14,371 nt of DNA from the NCBI GenBank assembly GCA_030148625.1, contig JASBTC010000002.1:1-14371 (forward strand). Reading direction: 5' to 3'. This stretch comes from Sphingobium sp. Lineage in GTDB: Bacteria > Pseudomonadota > Alphaproteobacteria > Sphingomonadales > Sphingomonadaceae. The notes under the pieces were generated by a model. That model searched no databases, was not told where the DNA came from, and saw nothing but the letters and a program-made list of their open reading frames with translations. The first letter of the stretch is position 1, and every line of letters starts with the position of its first letter. Both the position numbers and the translations under genes were made by a program. Shown here piece by piece: positions 1,039-5,648 of the stretch.

Positions 1039-1461
1039 TCAGACGGGCTTCTCGGCGTATCGCCCAGCCGTCTCGCGGATCAGCGCGATCATGTTGGGAA
1101 TGCCCTGGGTACGGTTCGAGCTGAGCTGGTTCCTGAGATCGAAGGGCGCCAGCGCGCCTTCGATGTCGAGCGCGAGGATTTCCGTTCCTGTCCGATTCTG
1201 GACGATCTTGAGAATGAGCGCGATGATGCCCTTGGTGATCGCGGCATTGCTGTCGGCCAGGAAATGGAGCCGGTCGTTGTCGATGATGGTGGGATAGACC
1301 CAGACTGCCGCCGAACAGCCGCGGACCAATGTGGCGTCGGTCTTGAGGGCGGCGGGCATCTCGTCGAGCGCGCGGCCCAGATCGATCAGGAGACGGTAGC
1401 GGTCGTCGCTGTCGAGGAACTCATATTCTTCGCGGATGTCGTCGAGCGTGGGATCGGCCAT
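1039..1461 (-). CDS. sufE: SufE family cysteine-desulfurase activator
   Basis: A 140-residue protein of typical SufE length. The conserved acceptor cysteine is C49, in VRGCSAAVWV. SufE takes persulfide sulfur from the cysteine desulfurase SufS and passes it to the SufBCD scaffold for Fe-S cluster assembly in the cytoplasm. The N-terminal LDDIREEYEFL and the R-x-GCxxxVW core are family hallmarks. No suf operon genes are adjacent, as is common for stand-alone sufE. It lies 41 nt downstream of the last leftward ORF of the psp cluster, so readthrough from that operon is possible. A small hairpin abuts the start codon. The fold and function assignment are firm; the transcriptional unit is not. Confidence 0.93.
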   Translation of the reverse strand: MADPTLDDIREEYEFLDSDDRYRLLIDLGRALDEMPAALKTDATLVRGCSAAVWVYPTIIDNDRLHFLADSNAAITKGIIALILKIVQNRTGTEILALDIEGALAPFDLRNQLSSNRTQGIPNMIALIRETAGRYAEKPV

Positions 1462-1502: not shown

Positions 1503-1643
1503 TCAGGCGGCGGGCGTCGAAGGTGTCGGCTTGGACGGCGTGGTTTCGACAGAGTGGCGGGGCCGGGGCTTTTGCGATTGTCCGGCGTCCGCCTGCTCCA
1601 TCATCCGGCCGAACAGGCCGACCGATTTGCGGCGACTGGTCAC
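1503..1643 (-). CDS. Possible 46-residue small protein at the end of the psp cluster
   Basis: A GTG codon at 1643 overlaps the TGA of the preceding 77-residue gene (GTGA), the arrangement typical of translational coupling. The reading frame gives 46 residues: a basic N-terminus, the stretch VGLFGRMMEQAD near residues 8-19, then a Pro/Ser/Thr/Lys-rich tail ending TPSTPAA. No transmembrane segment is visible. I do not recognise a family. It may be a real terminal gene of the psp operon or simply open sequence before sufE; overlap and position are the only support. Confidence 0.35.
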   Translation of the reverse strand: MTSRRKSVGLFGRMMEQADAGQSQKPRPRHSVETTPSKPTPSTPAA

Positions 1644-1873
1644 AGGTCGACGCCCGCGGCGATCGCTTCGAGTTTGCGGATGCGTTCCTTGAGATCGGCG
1701 ATCTCGATACGCGAACCCGCCGAGGACGGCACGATCTCGTTGCGCGCATGCTGTTGCAGTTCGGCGCGCTTGAACTCGAGCCATCCCCGCCAGCCGCGCA
1801 GTGCGCCGAAGGTCAGGATGCCGATCCCCGACAGAGCGGAGAGCGCGAGGACGATGATGGGATAGTCGGTCAT
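1640..1873 (-). CDS. Small single-pass membrane protein with coiled-coil tail, psp-associated
   Basis: A 77-residue protein. Residues 4-24 (YPIIVLALSALSGIGILTF) form one hydrophobic segment, followed by an amphipathic charged region. The tail (IADLKERIRKLEAIAAG, about 59-75) is coiled-coil-like and resembles the LKERI-x-x-LE part of the neighbouring proteins and of PspB, but it stops before the final EI-x-x-LR element. A good ribosome binding site (GGGGAAG) precedes the ATG. It starts 32 nt after the previous psp-cluster gene and shares its direction, so it is very probably in the same operon. Architecture matches PspB-like proteins; a function in envelope stress is inferred from context only. 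Confidence 0.72.
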   Translation of the reverse strand: MTDYPIIVLALSALSGIGILTFGALRGWRGWLEFKRAELQQHARNEIVPSSAGSRIEIADLKERIRKLEAIAAGVDL

Positions 1874-1905
1874 TGGTCTTCCCCATGTCTGCGATCGGCC
1901 GGGCG

Positions 1906-2157
1906 TTACACCCGGTCGCGATCCCGGAGCTTCTCGATTTCCCGGTCGAGGCTGCTCGTATTGTCGGTCGCCAGGCGCTCCAGCACCGCGATCCGTTCCT
2001 TCAACTGCTTCACTTCGTCGCGAAGCCGATCCGAATTTGCGTCGTGGACCGCCGGGCCGTCGCCGCGCCCATGTCTTCCGACGCCATATTTTGCGCGAAA
2101 GATGCTGGCGATCATCACGATCGCAACGATCAGCACCACCATTTCAAACGGATTCAT
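1906..2157 (-). CDS. PspB-like small membrane protein with PspC-type tail
   Basis: An 83-residue protein. Residues 5-21 (EMVVLIVAIVMIASIF) form an N-terminal membrane segment. A short basic/glycine linker (KYGVGRHGRGDG) follows, then a charged coiled coil from about residue 43 to the end. The tail reads LKERIAVLERLATDNTSSL followed by REIEKLR, closely matching the tails of the two genes upstream and, more loosely, the C-terminus of PspC. An AAGGA ribosome binding site lies just before the ATG. It sits 25 nt after the preceding gene. Probably a membrane-anchored partner or modulator of the PspA/B/C complex (inference). Confidence 0.8.
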   Translation of the reverse strand: MNPFEMVVLIVAIVMIASIFRAKYGVGRHGRGDGPAVHDANSDRLRDEVKQLKERIAVLERLATDNTSSLDREIEKLRDRDRV

Positions 2158-2182
2158 GTCCTTGTTCCTCTCAGAACGAATA

Positions 2183-2518
2183 TCAGTTGGTCTTGCCGCG
2201 AAGCTGTTCGATCTCGCGGTTCAGCGTGTGTGCTTCGTCGGTCACGATACGCTCGACATTGGCGAGGCGATCCTTGATCGATCCGATCTCGGCGCGAAGC
2301 TGGGCATTTTCCTGCGTCAGCAGCTTCACCCGTTCGATTGCCTCGTCGTTCTTGCGCGGATAGACCGCCTGGCCCCAGGCGCCGTCCAGCGGATAGCCGT
2401 GACGGATGCGCATCCAGGTGGTGATCACCCATCCGGCAACCGCCACGACGACGATGATGGCGATGACGGGGCCCAGATTCTGTATGAGGCCCTGCGCCAA
2501 TGTCAGCTTGTCTTCCAT
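2183..2518 (-). CDS. PspB-like small membrane protein, tandem paralogue A
   Basis: A 111-residue protein with one membrane segment at about residues 16-35 (LGPVIAIIVVVAVAGWVITT). A juxtamembrane motif GWVITTWMRIRHGYP then LDGAWG follows, then a long coiled coil (about 55-105) ending NREIEQLRGKTN. The juxtamembrane motif is nearly identical in the upstream gene (2542-2832), showing tandem duplication. An AAAGGGAAA ribosome binding site precedes the ATG, 23 nt after the previous stop. The extended N-terminus (MEDKLTLAQGLIQN) is unique to this copy. I know no named function; the PspB-like layout and operon position suggest a role in the membrane arm of the Psp response. Confidence 0.82.
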   Translation of the reverse strand: MEDKLTLAQGLIQNLGPVIAIIVVVAVAGWVITTWMRIRHGYPLDGAWGQAVYPRKNDEAIERVKLLTQENAQLRAEIGSIKDRLANVERIVTDEAHTLNREIEQLRGKTN

Positions 2519-2541
2519 GATTTTCCCTTTCCCAGTCGGGT

Positions 2542-2832
2542 TCAGCGCAGCGCGTCGATCTCGTCGGACAGGCGGCCGGTGCGATCGGTGGCGATCCGTT
2601 CCAGCACTGCGATCCGCTCTTCGAGTCTGCCGATCCGATCCTTCAACTGGCCATTTTCATTCGAAAGCAGTTCGATTTTTCGATCGGCGTCGGGATGGCT
2701 TCGATCAACGGTGCCGCCCCATTCGCCTTCCAGCGGATATCCGTGCTTTGCGCGGATCCATGTCGTGATCACCCAGCCGCCGATGCTCATCGCGATGATC
2801 GCAATGACGAAGCCTGGTCCTGCCCAGCCCAT
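2542..2832 (-). CDS. PspB-like small membrane protein, tandem paralogue B
   Basis: A 96-residue protein with a membrane segment at residues 5-25 (GPGFVIAIIAMSIGGWVITTW). The motif RAKHGYPLEGEWGGTV follows, shared with paralogue A. After it comes a leucine-rich coiled coil (about 50-92) ending ERIATDRTGRLSDEIDALR. The tail resembles that of PspC, while the overall topology (N-terminal membrane segment, cytoplasmic coiled coil) resembles PspB. A GGGGAGACAGGA ribosome binding site precedes the ATG, 27 nt after pspC. Operon membership is strongly implied by spacing and direction; molecular function is inferred. Confidence 0.82.
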   Translation of the reverse strand: MGWAGPGFVIAIIAMSIGGWVITTWIRAKHGYPLEGEWGGTVDRSHPDADRKIELLSNENGQLKDRIGRLEERIAVLERIATDRTGRLSDEIDALR

Positions 2833-2859: not shown

Positions 2860-3240
2860 TCAGCGCAGCCGCTCGATCTCGTCGGCGAGCGCGGTGTTGC
2901 GGCTGGTATAATAGAGTTCGACATCGGCCAGGCGGCGATCGATGTCGCGGAACTTGGAGCGGACCTCGCGGGTGCTGCGCGCCGGCGAGCGGCGGACGCC
3001 CTGCCAGAATTTCTGATCCTCGACGTCGCTGTAAAGGCCGGCGGGCTTGGGATTGGCGATCCAGGCGGCGGTCCAATAGGCGATCAGCGTCCAGGGAAAG
3101 CCCCCCATGATGGTGAGCAACACGGCGCCCACGCGGACCCAGGTTGCATCGACGCCGGTATAGTCGGCGATCCCCGCGCAGACGCCCAGCCATTTGCGGT
3201 TCTGCTTGTCGAGGTAGAATTTGGTGCGGCTGGCGGACAT
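2860..3240 (-). CDS. pspC: Envelope stress response membrane protein PspC
   Basis: A 126-residue protein. An N-terminal PspC domain (about residues 7-64) contains FYLDKQNRKWLGVCAGIADY and a membrane segment at about 36-61 (WVRVGAVLLTIMGGFPWTLIAYWTAAW). A cytoplasmic region follows, ending in a helix with VELYYTSRNTALADEIERLR. In the known Psp system PspC senses inner-membrane stress together with PspB and sequesters PspA away from PspF. A GGGAGGAAC ribosome binding site lies before the ATG, 35 nt after pspB. The C-terminal helix has the signature that recurs in the downstream small proteins. Family assignment is firm. Confidence 0.93.
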   Translation of the reverse strand: MSASRTKFYLDKQNRKWLGVCAGIADYTGVDATWVRVGAVLLTIMGGFPWTLIAYWTAAWIANPKPAGLYSDVEDQKFWQGVRRSPARSTREVRSKFRDIDRRLADVELYYTSRNTALADEIERLR

Positions 3241-3275: not shown

Positions 3276-3536
3276 TCAGCGGCGGTCTTCCAGGCGATCG
3301 AATTGCGACACGGTGTCGCCCAGACGCCAGTTCGGATTGTCGGCGGCGATGATGCGCTCGATGCTGTGGAGCCGGTCATCGAGCCGCCGTGCGGTGTCGT
3401 GGAGCTCGTCGAGCAGGTTCTCGTCCTCGCGCGTGATGTTCCCGGCCCGCTTCCACTGCGTGACATAGTGGAGGATGATCCAGGGCATCCCGATGAAGAT
3501 CGCGACGATCGCGAGGACGGGGACGAAATCCTCCAT
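3276..3536 (-). CDS. pspB: Envelope stress response membrane protein PspB
   Basis: An 86-residue protein of near-standard PspB length (about 75-85). One N-terminal membrane segment (residues 5-24, VPVLAIVAIFIGMPWIILHY) precedes WKRAG and a coiled coil. The PspB hallmark near the C-terminus is SIERIIAADNPNWR, about residues 58-71. PspB works with PspC at the inner membrane to relieve PspA inhibition of PspF. The ATG lies 4 nt after the pspA stop and its ribosome binding site (AGGAGGG) lies inside the end of pspA, implying tight cotranslation. The tail beyond NPNWR (LGDTVSQFDRLEDRR) is slightly longer than usual. Confidence 0.93.
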   Translation of the reverse strand: MEDFVPVLAIVAIFIGMPWIILHYVTQWKRAGNITREDENLLDELHDTARRLDDRLHSIERIIAADNPNWRLGDTVSQFDRLEDRR

Positions 3537-3540
3537 GAGC

Positions 3541-4212
3541 TCAGCCCTCCTGGCCGGCGGTCCGAGCCTTCAGCGCGGCAAGTTCGGCATCGACCTTTTC
3601 GGACGAGCGCAGCTCCGCGATCTCCTCTTCGAGCGTCTTGCCCGGCCCGCCCAGCGCGAGCGCGTCCGCACGGCCCTCGGCCAGGTCGACGCGGCGCTCG
3701 AGCAGGTCGAAGCGCGAAAAGGCGTCCTCGACTTTCTGGCCGGCATAGGCTTCACGAACCCGGGCGCGGTTCTGCGCGCTTTCCAGTCGCGTGACGATCG
3801 AGTTCTGGCGGGCGCGCGCTTCGCGCAGCTTGGCCTGGAGCTTGGAGATATCCTCTTCCGAAGCGCGCAGTGCATCGTCGAGCACGGTGATCTCCGACTG
3901 GAGCTGCTCGGCCATGTCGAATGCCTTCTGGCGCTCCATCAGCGCGGCCTTGGCGAGATCCTCGCGATCCTTGGACAGCGCCAGTTCGGCCTTCTCCATC
4001 CAGCTTTCCTGGAGTTTTTCGAGCTTCACGATGTGACGGCGCATTTCCTTCTGATCCGCGATGGTGCGCGCGGCGGACGCACGGACCTCGACCAGCGTTT
4101 CCTCCATCTCGAGGATGATCATGCGGATCATCTTCGCGGGATCTTCGGCCTTGTCGAGCAGGTCGGTGACGTTGGCGGCGATGATGTCGCGGGTTCGAGA
4201 GAAAATGCCCAT
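3541..4212 (-). CDS. pspA: Phage shock protein A (PspA/IM30 family)
   Basis: A 223-residue protein from the ATG at 4212, matching the usual PspA length of about 222. The family N-terminus MGIFSRTRDIIAANV (amphipathic membrane-binding helix) is followed by DLLDKAEDPAKMIRMIILEMEETL and then an almost wholly helical coiled-coil protein. PspA binds and inhibits PspF in unstressed cells and, when released, assembles on damaged inner membrane. The start six codons upstream (4230) is rejected because the family motif begins at 4212 and TAGGAG sits at a correct distance before it. It lies downstream of the sigma-54 promoter and the 50-residue ORF. Assignment is firm. Confidence 0.96.
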   Translation of the reverse strand: MGIFSRTRDIIAANVTDLLDKAEDPAKMIRMIILEMEETLVEVRASAARTIADQKEMRRHIVKLEKLQESWMEKAELALSKDREDLAKAALMERQKAFDMAEQLQSEITVLDDALRASEEDISKLQAKLREARARQNSIVTRLESAQNRARVREAYAGQKVEDAFSRFDLLERRVDLAEGRADALALGGPGKTLEEEIAELRSSEKVDAELAALKARTAGQEG

Positions 4213-4249
4213 CTGGAAACTCCTAAACATGGTCTGGTCGAAAGAGGGT

Positions 4250-4291: not shown

Positions 4292-4444
4292 TCAGGCCAG
4301 CGGCCGGACGACGGGGGCTTCGTTGGCGCCGGTATCGGCGCGTGCCGGCCCGACCGCGCTCAGCACGCAGGTGGCGCTGAACAGGACGGTGCAGACGATG
4401 GCGGTGAGGGTCTTGGCGAACCGGTTTTCGGTGATGTTGATCAT
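4292..4444 (-). CDS. 50-residue putative secreted peptide, first gene of the psp operon
   Basis: A short reading frame of 50 residues. The ATG at 4444 is preceded by a good ribosome binding site (CAGGGAGTT). The N-terminus has K11/R8, then a hydrophobic stretch of about residues 13-31 (LTAIVCTVLFSATCVLSAV), then GPARA followed by D37. This looks like a Sec signal peptide with an A-R-A cleavage site after A36, leaving a mature peptide of only about 14 residues ending VVRPLA. If uncleaved it would be a single-pass membrane miniprotein. It is the first cistron after the sigma-54 promoter and precedes pspA, so it should be induced with the Psp response. I do not know a named family. GC-rich third positions and the ribosome binding site favour a real gene. 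Confidence 0.68.
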   Translation of the reverse strand: MINITENRFAKTLTAIVCTVLFSATCVLSAVGPARADTGANEAPVVRPLA

Positions 4445-4501: not shown

Positions 4502-4517
4502 AGCATGCGCCGTGCCA
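4502..4517 (-). promoter_or_regulatory. Sigma-54 (RpoN) promoter of the psp operon
   Basis: On the minus strand the sequence TGGCACGGCGCATGCT matches the sigma-54 consensus TGGCACG-N4-TTGCW at every defined position except one (ATGC for TTGC). The -24 GG and -12 GC are correctly spaced. Transcription would begin near 4491, giving a leader of about 47 nt before the 50-residue ORF. A sigma-54 promoter here is expected because pspF encodes a sigma-54 activator next door. Confidence 0.85.
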
Positions 4518-4613: not shown

Positions 4614-5648
4614 ATGGGCATGGATCGCGACAATAGTTTTATCGGTCAATCGACCGCTTTCCTCGATTCGGTGGAACGCGCGAGCCGCGCCGCCGCGCTC
4701 AATCGTCCGGTGCTGGTGATCGGCGAGCGGGGCACGGGCAAGGAACTGGTCGCCGAGCGCCTGCATCGCCTGAGCCCGCGCTGGGACGGGCCCCTGGTCA
4801 CGATGAATTGCGCCGCTTTGCCCGAGACGCTGGTCGAGGCCGAGCTGTTCGGTCATGAGGCGGGTGCATTCACCGGCGCGACCCGCATGCGCGCCGGCCG
4901 TTTCGAGGAAGCGGACGGCGGCACCCTGTTCCTCGACGAACTGGCGACGCTGTCCGCCTCCGCGCAGGAGCGGCTGCTGCGCGCGGTCGAATATGGTGAA
5001 GTGACGCGGATCGGGTCGAACAATCCGCTGCGCGTCGACATCCGCATCGTCGCCGCGACCAACGAGCATCTGCCGGCGCTGGTCGAGGCCGGCCGGTTCC
5101 GCGCCGATCTGCTCGATCGAATGAGCTTCGAGGTCGTGACCCTGCCGCCTTTGCGTGCACGCGAAGGCGATGTGCCGGTGCTCGCGGATCATTTCGCGCG
5201 GCGCATGGCGGCCGAGCTCGACTGGCCGCATTGGCCGGGTTTTTCGGCGGATGCCGCCGCGGCGCTGCTGGCGCATGACTGGCCGGGCAATGTGCGTGAG
5301 TTGCGCAATGTGATCGAGCGTGCGGTCTATCGCTGGGATGATCCCGAGCGTCCGGTCGACGAGATCGTCTTCGATCCATTCGCATCGCCCTGGCGCCCCG
5401 AGAGTCAGGTGAGCAAGGCACCGTCCGCGCCGCCGGCGTCGGACGTGGAGCCGCGCGCGCTGCCGGCTCCGGCCCAGCCCGATCTGCCCGAAGTCGACGA
5501 TCTGCGGCGTGCGGTCGACGGGCATGAGCGGCGCATCCTCGAAGCGGCACTGGCACGCAACCGGTTCAACCAGCGCGCCACCGCCAAGAGCCTCAACCTG
5601 AGTTATGACCAGCTTCGCCATGCGCTCAAGCGGCACGACCTGCTCTGA
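4614..5648 (+). CDS. pspF: Psp operon sigma-54 transcriptional activator PspF
   Basis: A 344-residue AAA+ bacterial enhancer-binding protein. Walker A is GERGTGKE at 37-44, the sigma-54-contacting GAFTGA loop is at 84-89, and Walker B is GTLFLDEL at 103-110. [10 protein letters not shown] and a Pro/Ala-rich linker precede a C-terminal Fis-type helix-turn-helix (about 305-344, ending [13 protein letters not shown]). There is no N-terminal receiver or GAF domain, exactly as in PspF, which is controlled by direct binding of PspA to the AAA+ domain. It is divergent from the psp operon, the canonical arrangement. The ATG at 4614 or 4620 is possible; no strong ribosome binding site discriminates. 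The linker is somewhat longer than in enterobacterial PspF. Confidence 0.95.

Follow-up and report, generated by a model that had tools for sequence, protein, structure and literature searches.

A set of small membrane proteins with PspC-like tails extends the psp operon of sphingomonads

The window, by which we mean the whole stretch of 14,371 nucleotides of Sphingobium sp. contig JASBTC010000002.1 that was analyzed, contains a psp locus in which pspA, pspB, and pspC are followed by four small genes, termed here o1 to o4 (Table 1). PspA, PspB, PspC, and PspF of the window all score above their NCBIfam cut-offs (TIGR02977, TIGR02976, TIGR02978, and TIGR02974, respectively). The initial annotation had described four genes of 77–111 codons at 2832–1640, running in the same direction as pspABC with gaps of 23–32 nt, and the open reading frame (ORF) list agrees with this description throughout, the gaps from pspC through o1, o2, and o3 to o4 being 27, 23, 25, and 32 nt. 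For the ribosome binding sites that it claimed, candidates are seen by eye, as a purine-rich stretch before the ATG of every one of the four genes.

Table 1. Features of the psp locus in the window and of the pspA2-pspC2-o4 loci in four other genomes
Feature	Coordinates	Strand	Evidence or remark
pspF, sigma-54 activator, divergent	4614..5648	+	TIGR02974, 483.3 bits (cut-off 443.55)
Sigma-54 (-24/-12) promoter-like site, TGGCACGGCGCATGCT	4502..4517	-	One mismatch to searched pattern
Possible small gene, 50-aa signal-peptide-like ORF between promoter and pspA	4292..4444	-	
pspA	3541..4230	-	TIGR02977, 276.4 bits (cut-off 242.95)
pspB	3276..3536	-	TIGR02976, 78.8 bits; PF06667, 88.3 bits
pspC	2860..3240	-	TIGR02978, 118.3 bits (cut-off 104)
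o1, 96 aa: one predicted TM segment, GYPL motif, PspC-type tail	2542..2832	-	
o2, 111 aa: one predicted TM segment, conserved GYPLDGxWG motif, PspC-type tail	2183..2518	-	
o3, 83 aa: FEM-type predicted TM segment, PspB/PspC-type tail	1906..2157	-	
o4, 77 aa: one predicted TM segment, short divergent tail (ADLKERIRKLEAIAAG)	1640..1873	-	
Possible 46-aa ORF, 4-nt overlap (GTGA) with o4 stop	1503..1643	-	Weak
sufE, usual 3' neighbor of the set	1039..1461	-	PF02657, 1.7e-33
pspA2-pspC2-o4	L133:2470-3882; L134:2485-3964; L135:2734-4164; L136:2774-4289		Own-strand coordinates

When GTDB genomes were scanned with an o2 alignment, at least 429 relatives were confirmed, and the best 80 loci were retained; since these are the best o2 relatives, the loci are selected by o2. 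Together with the window and one plasmid-borne locus they make up 82 loci, all of which contain pspA, pspB, and pspC, and 78 of which contain sufE. Genes of the o families, counted as HMM matches within 3.5 kb after pspC, follow pspC in all 80 o2-selected loci, with five genes in 38 loci, four in 23, six in 12, three in 4, seven in 2, and two in 1. The commonest order, o1-o2-o5-o3-o4 (32 of 80 loci), includes a fifth family of AEKAAQYA type, o5, that was not found in the window; the o1-o2-o3-o4 order of the window recurs in 10 of 80. A psp locus of sphingomonad type (L071) also appears in a record titled Bacillus sp. 2B10, which is probably a mislabeled or mixed assembly.

Linkage to psp holds across the order as well. 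The o2 query, which also picks up o1- and o3-type paralogues, matches in 123 of 197 sampled genomes, and the pspB model in 190. The 150 o2-query matches listed span 113 of the 123 positive genomes (pspB matches of o2-negative genomes were excluded), and 145 of them (109 genomes) lie 681–1759 bp downstream of pspB on the same strand. None of the 150 was found away from psp, the other five (four genomes) being without a listed pspB match. Conserved synteny with psp, which the initial annotation had proposed as a check, is thus observed for o2-type homologues both among these matches and in the o2-selected loci. Twenty pspB-positive loci without o2, hand-picked from the pspB matches listed, include eight with o5/o3/o4-type sets, three with one o-family gene, and nine with none.

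In a class-wide sample, TIGR02978 matched in 36 of 289 genomes. Among 30 loci fetched, sets are present in five, all from genomes shared with the order sample, and none of these genes is seen in the 1.5 kb after pspC in 23. Some psp loci therefore lack them, which we count against the reading, developed below, that the small proteins act as accessory subunits in the Psp membrane complex. Two class-wide loci (L121 and L122) carry one small PspC-tail protein and one small PspB-tail protein after pspC, a parallel case that supports the same reading. The two genes of this pair, at about 1908–2400 on their own strand, are adjacent and have similar apparent membrane anchors. A second weak PspB-like match lies before pspC in L110 and L112, both among the 23. 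Taken together, the class-wide and order-wide loci indicate that the expansion marks sphingomonads, with a smaller parallel case elsewhere.

The small-gene extension of the psp operon is therefore real, conserved, and lineage-wide rather than a one-off oddity: o1–o4 run in the direction of pspABC, lie close behind it, and keep that position across loci. Its rarity had been overstated. The initial annotation set it against textbook pspABC loci with at most one or two additional genes, yet sets of two to seven genes are the norm in the loci examined, and PMC11237479 already notes that psp operons can contain PspB duplicates.

Several lines of evidence bear on whether o1–o4 are genuine genes. Relative to S. 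colocasiae (L002), dN/dS is 0.153 for o1, 0.160 for o2, 0.114 for o3, and 0.141 for o4, compared with 0.185 for pspB and 0.089 for pspC; relative to L004 and L005, the values for o1–o4 range from 0.148 to 0.399. This purifying selection, together with the presence of the set behind pspC in every o2-selected locus, identifies o1–o4 as real genes and rules out chance or spurious ORFs. The 46-aa ORF overlapping o4 has a similar ORF, of 47 aa, in L002 only. The 50-aa ORF before pspA has a phmmer match in 28 of 82 loci, and its slot holds an annotated ORF in S. parapaucimobilis too; its dN/dS is 0.35 versus L002, 1.07 versus L004, and 1.54 versus L005. In Zymomonas, ZMO1062, which adjoins pspA, has been named pspD (PMC8645129). 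Other loci contain additional small ORFs. An extra ORF of 51–58 aa lies between pspC and o1 at L036:5513-5686, L050:5525-5683, and L065:5488-5664; it is of the type MFTLIxLGLIxWFxYRHFAxKKR, and similar ORFs are present in L045, L046, and L067. A hydrophobic ORF of 58–59 aa that ends in RPGGL(S/M)G follows o4 in L059, L066, L068, L073, and L081, overlapping the o4 stop by 4 nt.

The initial annotation assigned to each small protein the layout of PspB, with one N-terminal membrane segment and a cytoplasmic coiled coil, and predictions agree. A script based on simple hydropathy and charge detects a membrane-like segment near the N terminus, with K/R more frequent on the C-terminal side, in 71 of 78 o1, 77 of 82 o2, 83 of 88 o3, 82 of 87 o4, 75 of 85 o5, and 88 of 102 pspB members, so that all of these families are predicted to be N-out/C-in. 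AlphaFold2 models o2 as an N-terminal helix and a long C-terminal helix (helices at 2–39, 48–51, and 56–109; mean pLDDT 77.1, pTM 0.34), a model that is silent on partners. Foldseek with this model gave no PDB match at E ≤ 0.001 (the single match has an E of 8.7), and PDB sequence searches with PspC and PspB reached a best E of only 0.74 and 0.69, respectively. The AlphaFold2 model of PspC is poor (pLDDT 58), and the tail equivalence described below therefore has no structural comparison behind it.

We scanned for a strict sigma-54 motif, TGGYAYR-N5-TGC, in the 77 of 82 loci that have pspA, pspC, sufE, and pspF in the expected orientation. The motif is present upstream of pspA in 57 of these 77 loci; the antisense strand of the same stretch has it in 0 of 77, and shuffled sequences in 1 of 1540. 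A scan of a wider stretch finds the motif in 69 of 82 loci. Between pspC and sufE, the strict motif was found in 0 of 77 loci, the scan covering the sigma-54 type. Under a loose scan of the window alone, its site at 4517–4502 does not rise above chance (two found, 3.35 expected), and an internal sigma-70 scan of the window gives one weak match at 2506–2477 (0.5 expected). With a sigma-54 motif upstream of pspA and none inside the set, it is likely that o1–o4 are transcribed together with pspABC as one PspF/sigma-54-driven transcript.

One run of genes behind a sigma-54 motif also fits a different role. PspD and PspG of enterobacteria are small extra proteins of the PspF regulon, a description that would also fit o1–o4; PspD or PspG models are not among the listed matches of o1–o4. 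The small proteins could similarly be stress effectors under PspF that exert their own effect at the membrane, perhaps by forming oligomeric scaffolds, and have no contact with PspA or PspC. A gene number that varies from two to seven, with turnover of paralogues between genomes, is what dispensable effectors would display. We nevertheless consider this role unlikely, because a pure effector would not need a tail of the PspC type, and the tail that the set has in common with PspC is conserved beyond heptad periodicity, as described next.

For comparison of the families, HMM seeds were chosen by motif and position. The HMMs of o1, o2, o3, and o5 cross-match each other, and the pspA HMM, which represents a coiled coil from the same operon, matches none. 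The pspC HMM matches 63 of 82 o2, 3 of 88 o3, and 1 of 78 o1 members; the pspB HMM matches 1 of 420 o-family ORFs. In hhalign, the o1, o2, o3, and o5 profiles align among themselves at 97.5–99.9% (o1-o2 99.9, o1-o3 99.3, and o2-o3 98.8%), and to the PspC tail at 89.8% (o1), 94.1% (o2), 92.9% (o3), and 63.6% (o5). The corresponding values for PspB are 75.9, 60.2, 79.5, and 39.5%, and those for PspA, the control, are at most 2.3%. PspB and PspC themselves align at 24.8% only, which counts against the accessory-subunit reading. When profile columns were permuted within heptad positions (25 trials per comparison), the real score was reached in 0 of 25 shuffles for o1, o2, o3, and o5, versus PspC as well as versus PspB. 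A plain coiled-coil resemblance of o1–o3 and o5 is ruled out by these shuffles and the PspA control. The o1, o2, and o3 family profiles, each scoring above 25 of 25 shuffles, belong with the C-terminal tail of PspC; the o4 profile shows no such excess over shuffles.

Among curated models, the o2 protein matches TIGR02978 with an E of 2.7e-5 over profile positions 39–121, at 24 bits, far under the 104-bit cut-off. At E ≤ 0.01, 35 of 35 o2 relatives match the PspC model TIGR02978 and 0 of 35 the PspB model TIGR02976. Among 30 o3 relatives, 15 match the PspB model of NCBIfam and 6 that of Pfam, 11 match the PspC model, and 4 match FtsL. Weak matches of o1 and o2 to bZIP models also occur, and 29 of 35 o2 relatives match NF045622, an unrelated coiled-coil model (best E 4.4e-4); single matches are therefore weak, and the shuffle test bears the weight. 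Against the 51.7-bit cut-off of TIGR02976, o3 scores 16.8 and o2 scores 9.9 bits, with o1 and o4 unlisted, and neither PF06667 (PspB) nor PF04024 (the PspC domain) matches any of o1–o4.

From the HMM, hhalign, shuffle, and curated-model results, we conclude that o1, o2, o3, and o5 are paralogues whose common tail is, in sequence, closest to the C terminus of PspC, on a layout that is PspB-like, with o3 between the two. The likeness to PspB claimed in the initial annotation thus stands for the layout and gives way for the sequence. The proteins of the window share with PspB their size, the single N-terminal membrane segment, and the predicted C-in coiled coil; however, PspB runs AADNPNW where their tails run TD..L..EI..LR. 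With PspC, o1–o3 share an E..xTS/TD core followed by L..EI..LR, but o1–o4 lack the PF04024 domain and have one membrane segment, and o2 stays well short of the TIGR02978 cut-off. That the small proteins are plain PspB duplicates, functionally redundant with PspB, would account for the layout, for the o3 relatives that match PspB models, and for the PspB duplicates reported in psp operons (PMC11237479). It is nonetheless very improbable, given that o1, o2, and o3 score higher to the PspC tail than to PspB, that the matches of o2 relatives are to PspC models rather than PspB models, that the pspB HMM recovers almost none of the o-family ORFs, and that the GYPL motif of o1 and o2 is absent from the PspB consensus.

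Where such tails occur in a genome is also informative. When 60 genomes were searched with a model of the tail alone, S. colocasiae gave four places, which are o1, o2, o3, and pspC of one locus. Their recovery is partly built in, as tails of this kind went into the model; the lack of further places is not. By eye, the 15 genomes with at least four matches have them in one psp cluster, with the exception of one zinc-ribbon-like protein in G033, a distribution that again argues against effectors acting apart from PspA and PspC.

Outside sphingomonads, the association with psp is looser for o3. The o3 query matches 63 of 99 genomes, and of 14 places off the main psp locus that were fetched, 11 have o3-like genes alone or in tandem (L141–L148, L150, L153, and L154, all from relatives outside sphingomonads); two others, L149 and L152, are psp loci, and L151 encodes a zinc-ribbon-like protein. 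Most genomes with o3-like genes off psp belong to the order sample and lack the o-sets; among the genomes with such genes are those of Paremcibacter congregatus (G031) and Pseudokordiimonas caeni (G065). The second o3-like gene of the Paremcibacter genome (L153:3881-4153) lies, by eye, directly 3' of an rpoD-like gene. The protein at L151:3770-4159 combines a zinc-ribbon-like CPKC...CGEC motif, identified by eye, with an o1-type tail and looks like module reuse. The strict sigma-54 motif was found before 0 of 11 of the stand-alone genes, leaving the idea that they are PspF-controlled like pspG unsupported.

The linkage to psp expected from the initial annotation therefore holds for o2-type genes in sphingomonads and not for o3-like homologues in outside relatives, and the tail family is wider than the operon set. 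Homologues located mostly off psp are the outcome that the initial annotation had named as a refutation, and o3-like genes of outside relatives show it; we also count their stand-alone position against the accessory-subunit reading. These stand-alone and tandem genes without a sigma-54 motif, and the zinc-ribbon-like protein with its o1-type tail in one genome, are what would be expected if the small proteins were members of a wider group of small coiled-coil membrane proteins with a separate role, some of which were captured by the sphingomonad psp operon and share with it the promoter alone. We regard such a capture as quite doubtful, since among the matches listed no o2-query match lies elsewhere in sphingomonads and o2 relatives match the PspC model; the behavior of o4 argues in the same direction.

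The o4 family stands somewhat apart. It aligns with o3 at 78–84% in hhalign and with o2 at only 2.3%, and its scores versus o3, o5, and o1 lie above 30 of 30 shuffles. Its scores versus PspC and PspB are no better than shuffles (18 of 25 and 3 of 25 reach the real score), and neither curated model, TIGR02978 or TIGR02976, is matched; the o4 tail is short and divergent. The o4 family is present in 37 of 99 sampled genomes and, judged by eye from coordinates, lies at the main psp locus in 33, the o4 of G045 being assigned there from a neighboring o3 match alone. In the other four (G091, G094, G098, and G104), the sole o4 is off the main locus and directly follows pspA2-pspC2 in 4 of 4 cases (L133–L136; Table 1), and the main psp loci of these genomes (L137–L140) are without o4. 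Because the moved copies follow pspA2-pspC2 in every case, o4 goes with PspA/PspC and not with sufE, and a role as a companion of sufE is ruled out; capture from a broader family is also difficult to reconcile with this pattern. One of the four pspA2 loci has the strict sigma-54 motif, which we count against the accessory-subunit reading. The pspA2-pspC2-o4 locus has no pspB match, and the four genomes are 2.2–2.5 Mb in size. PspA2 has an apparent N-terminal extension that depends on predicted start codons, and in L134–L136 pspA2 is preceded by small ORFs that by eye resemble the 50-aa ORF of the window. S. colocasiae has an additional o4 copy, separated by two small ORFs from a preceding SPFH/Band_7 gene; this cluster (L132:5847-7516, minus strand) also includes a gene for a HicB-like protein and an 89-aa ORF that matches no Pfam family.

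Published work gives the PspC tail a role in binding PspA. In Escherichia coli, the leucine zipper of PspC is required for interaction with PspA (PMC3068692), and in the on state the C-terminal cytoplasmic domain of PspC binds PspA (PMC5596341). PspC also interacts with PspG, and the older topology that places the PspC tail in the periplasm, discussed in the same work (PMC3068692), counts against the reading that follows. We consider it probable that o1–o4, having originated by duplication within the operon, serve the Psp membrane complex as accessory subunits, with tails that bind PspA, pair with the tails of PspC or PspB, or both. A PspC-type tail on a simple anchor, encoded in the same operon, makes further docking sites for PspA, or partners for the PspC and PspB tails, the most likely function, and the tail-bearing small proteins may serve as such extra docking points.

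In the mechanism that we propose, each duplicate would be a single-span, N-out/C-in anchor, with o1, o2, and o3 terminating in the zipper module found at the C terminus of PspC and, in more divergent form, of PspB, and with o4 ending in a short divergent version. Transcription by PspF-sigma-54 would yield o1–o4 alongside PspA, PspB, and PspC. Once in the membrane, o1–o4 would use their tails to engage the PspC or PspB tail, to bind PspA in the manner of the PspC tail, or both, and the additional anchoring points could shift the threshold for pulling PspA off PspF. More tentatively, and with less than even expectation on our part, the PspC tail could be a reusable plug, such that a combinatorial set of two to seven single-span anchors decides PspA recruitment in sphingomonads and o4 is a general adaptor shared with PspA2-PspC2 and perhaps with the SPFH protein. 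The anchors would differ in their juxtamembrane parts and have closely similar tails; those that are made or engaged would then set where, and how strongly, PspA is recruited.

The Psp system and PspB duplicates are known, and the extension by a set of PspC-tail paralogues is a lineage-wide variation on that system. Ravi et al. (2024; PMC11237479) report duplicates of PspB within psp operons, as well as the fusion of PspC to a divergent PspB at the C terminus. Those duplicates are, like o1–o4, extra PspB-like genes inside a psp operon, but the sections of that paper considered here give them one clause and one accession, and contain no PspC-tail paralogues, five-family set, or pspA2-pspC2-o4 locus. 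No description of the PspC-tail paralogue set was found in the literature listings and abstract openings searched, and the part of PMC9239133 considered does not treat these genes. Zymomonas pspABC is up under ethanol or xylose (PMC3495753, PMC8645129), with no mention of small genes after pspC in the portions of those papers covered.

At E ≤ 1e-3, the o2 query finds 7164 proteins and the o3 query 2450, paralogues included, and the names among the best 120 of each are mostly "hypothetical protein." The way in which PspB and PspC detect membrane damage and pass PspA on is not yet settled, and common model organisms provide a single PspC tail for study. With several natural PspC-tail proteins on one-helix anchors, sphingomonads separate the tail from the sensor domain, and this natural set provides ready-made tools for testing which part binds PspA. 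An accessory function of o1–o4 in the Psp membrane complex would also suggest a role for this large set of proteins.
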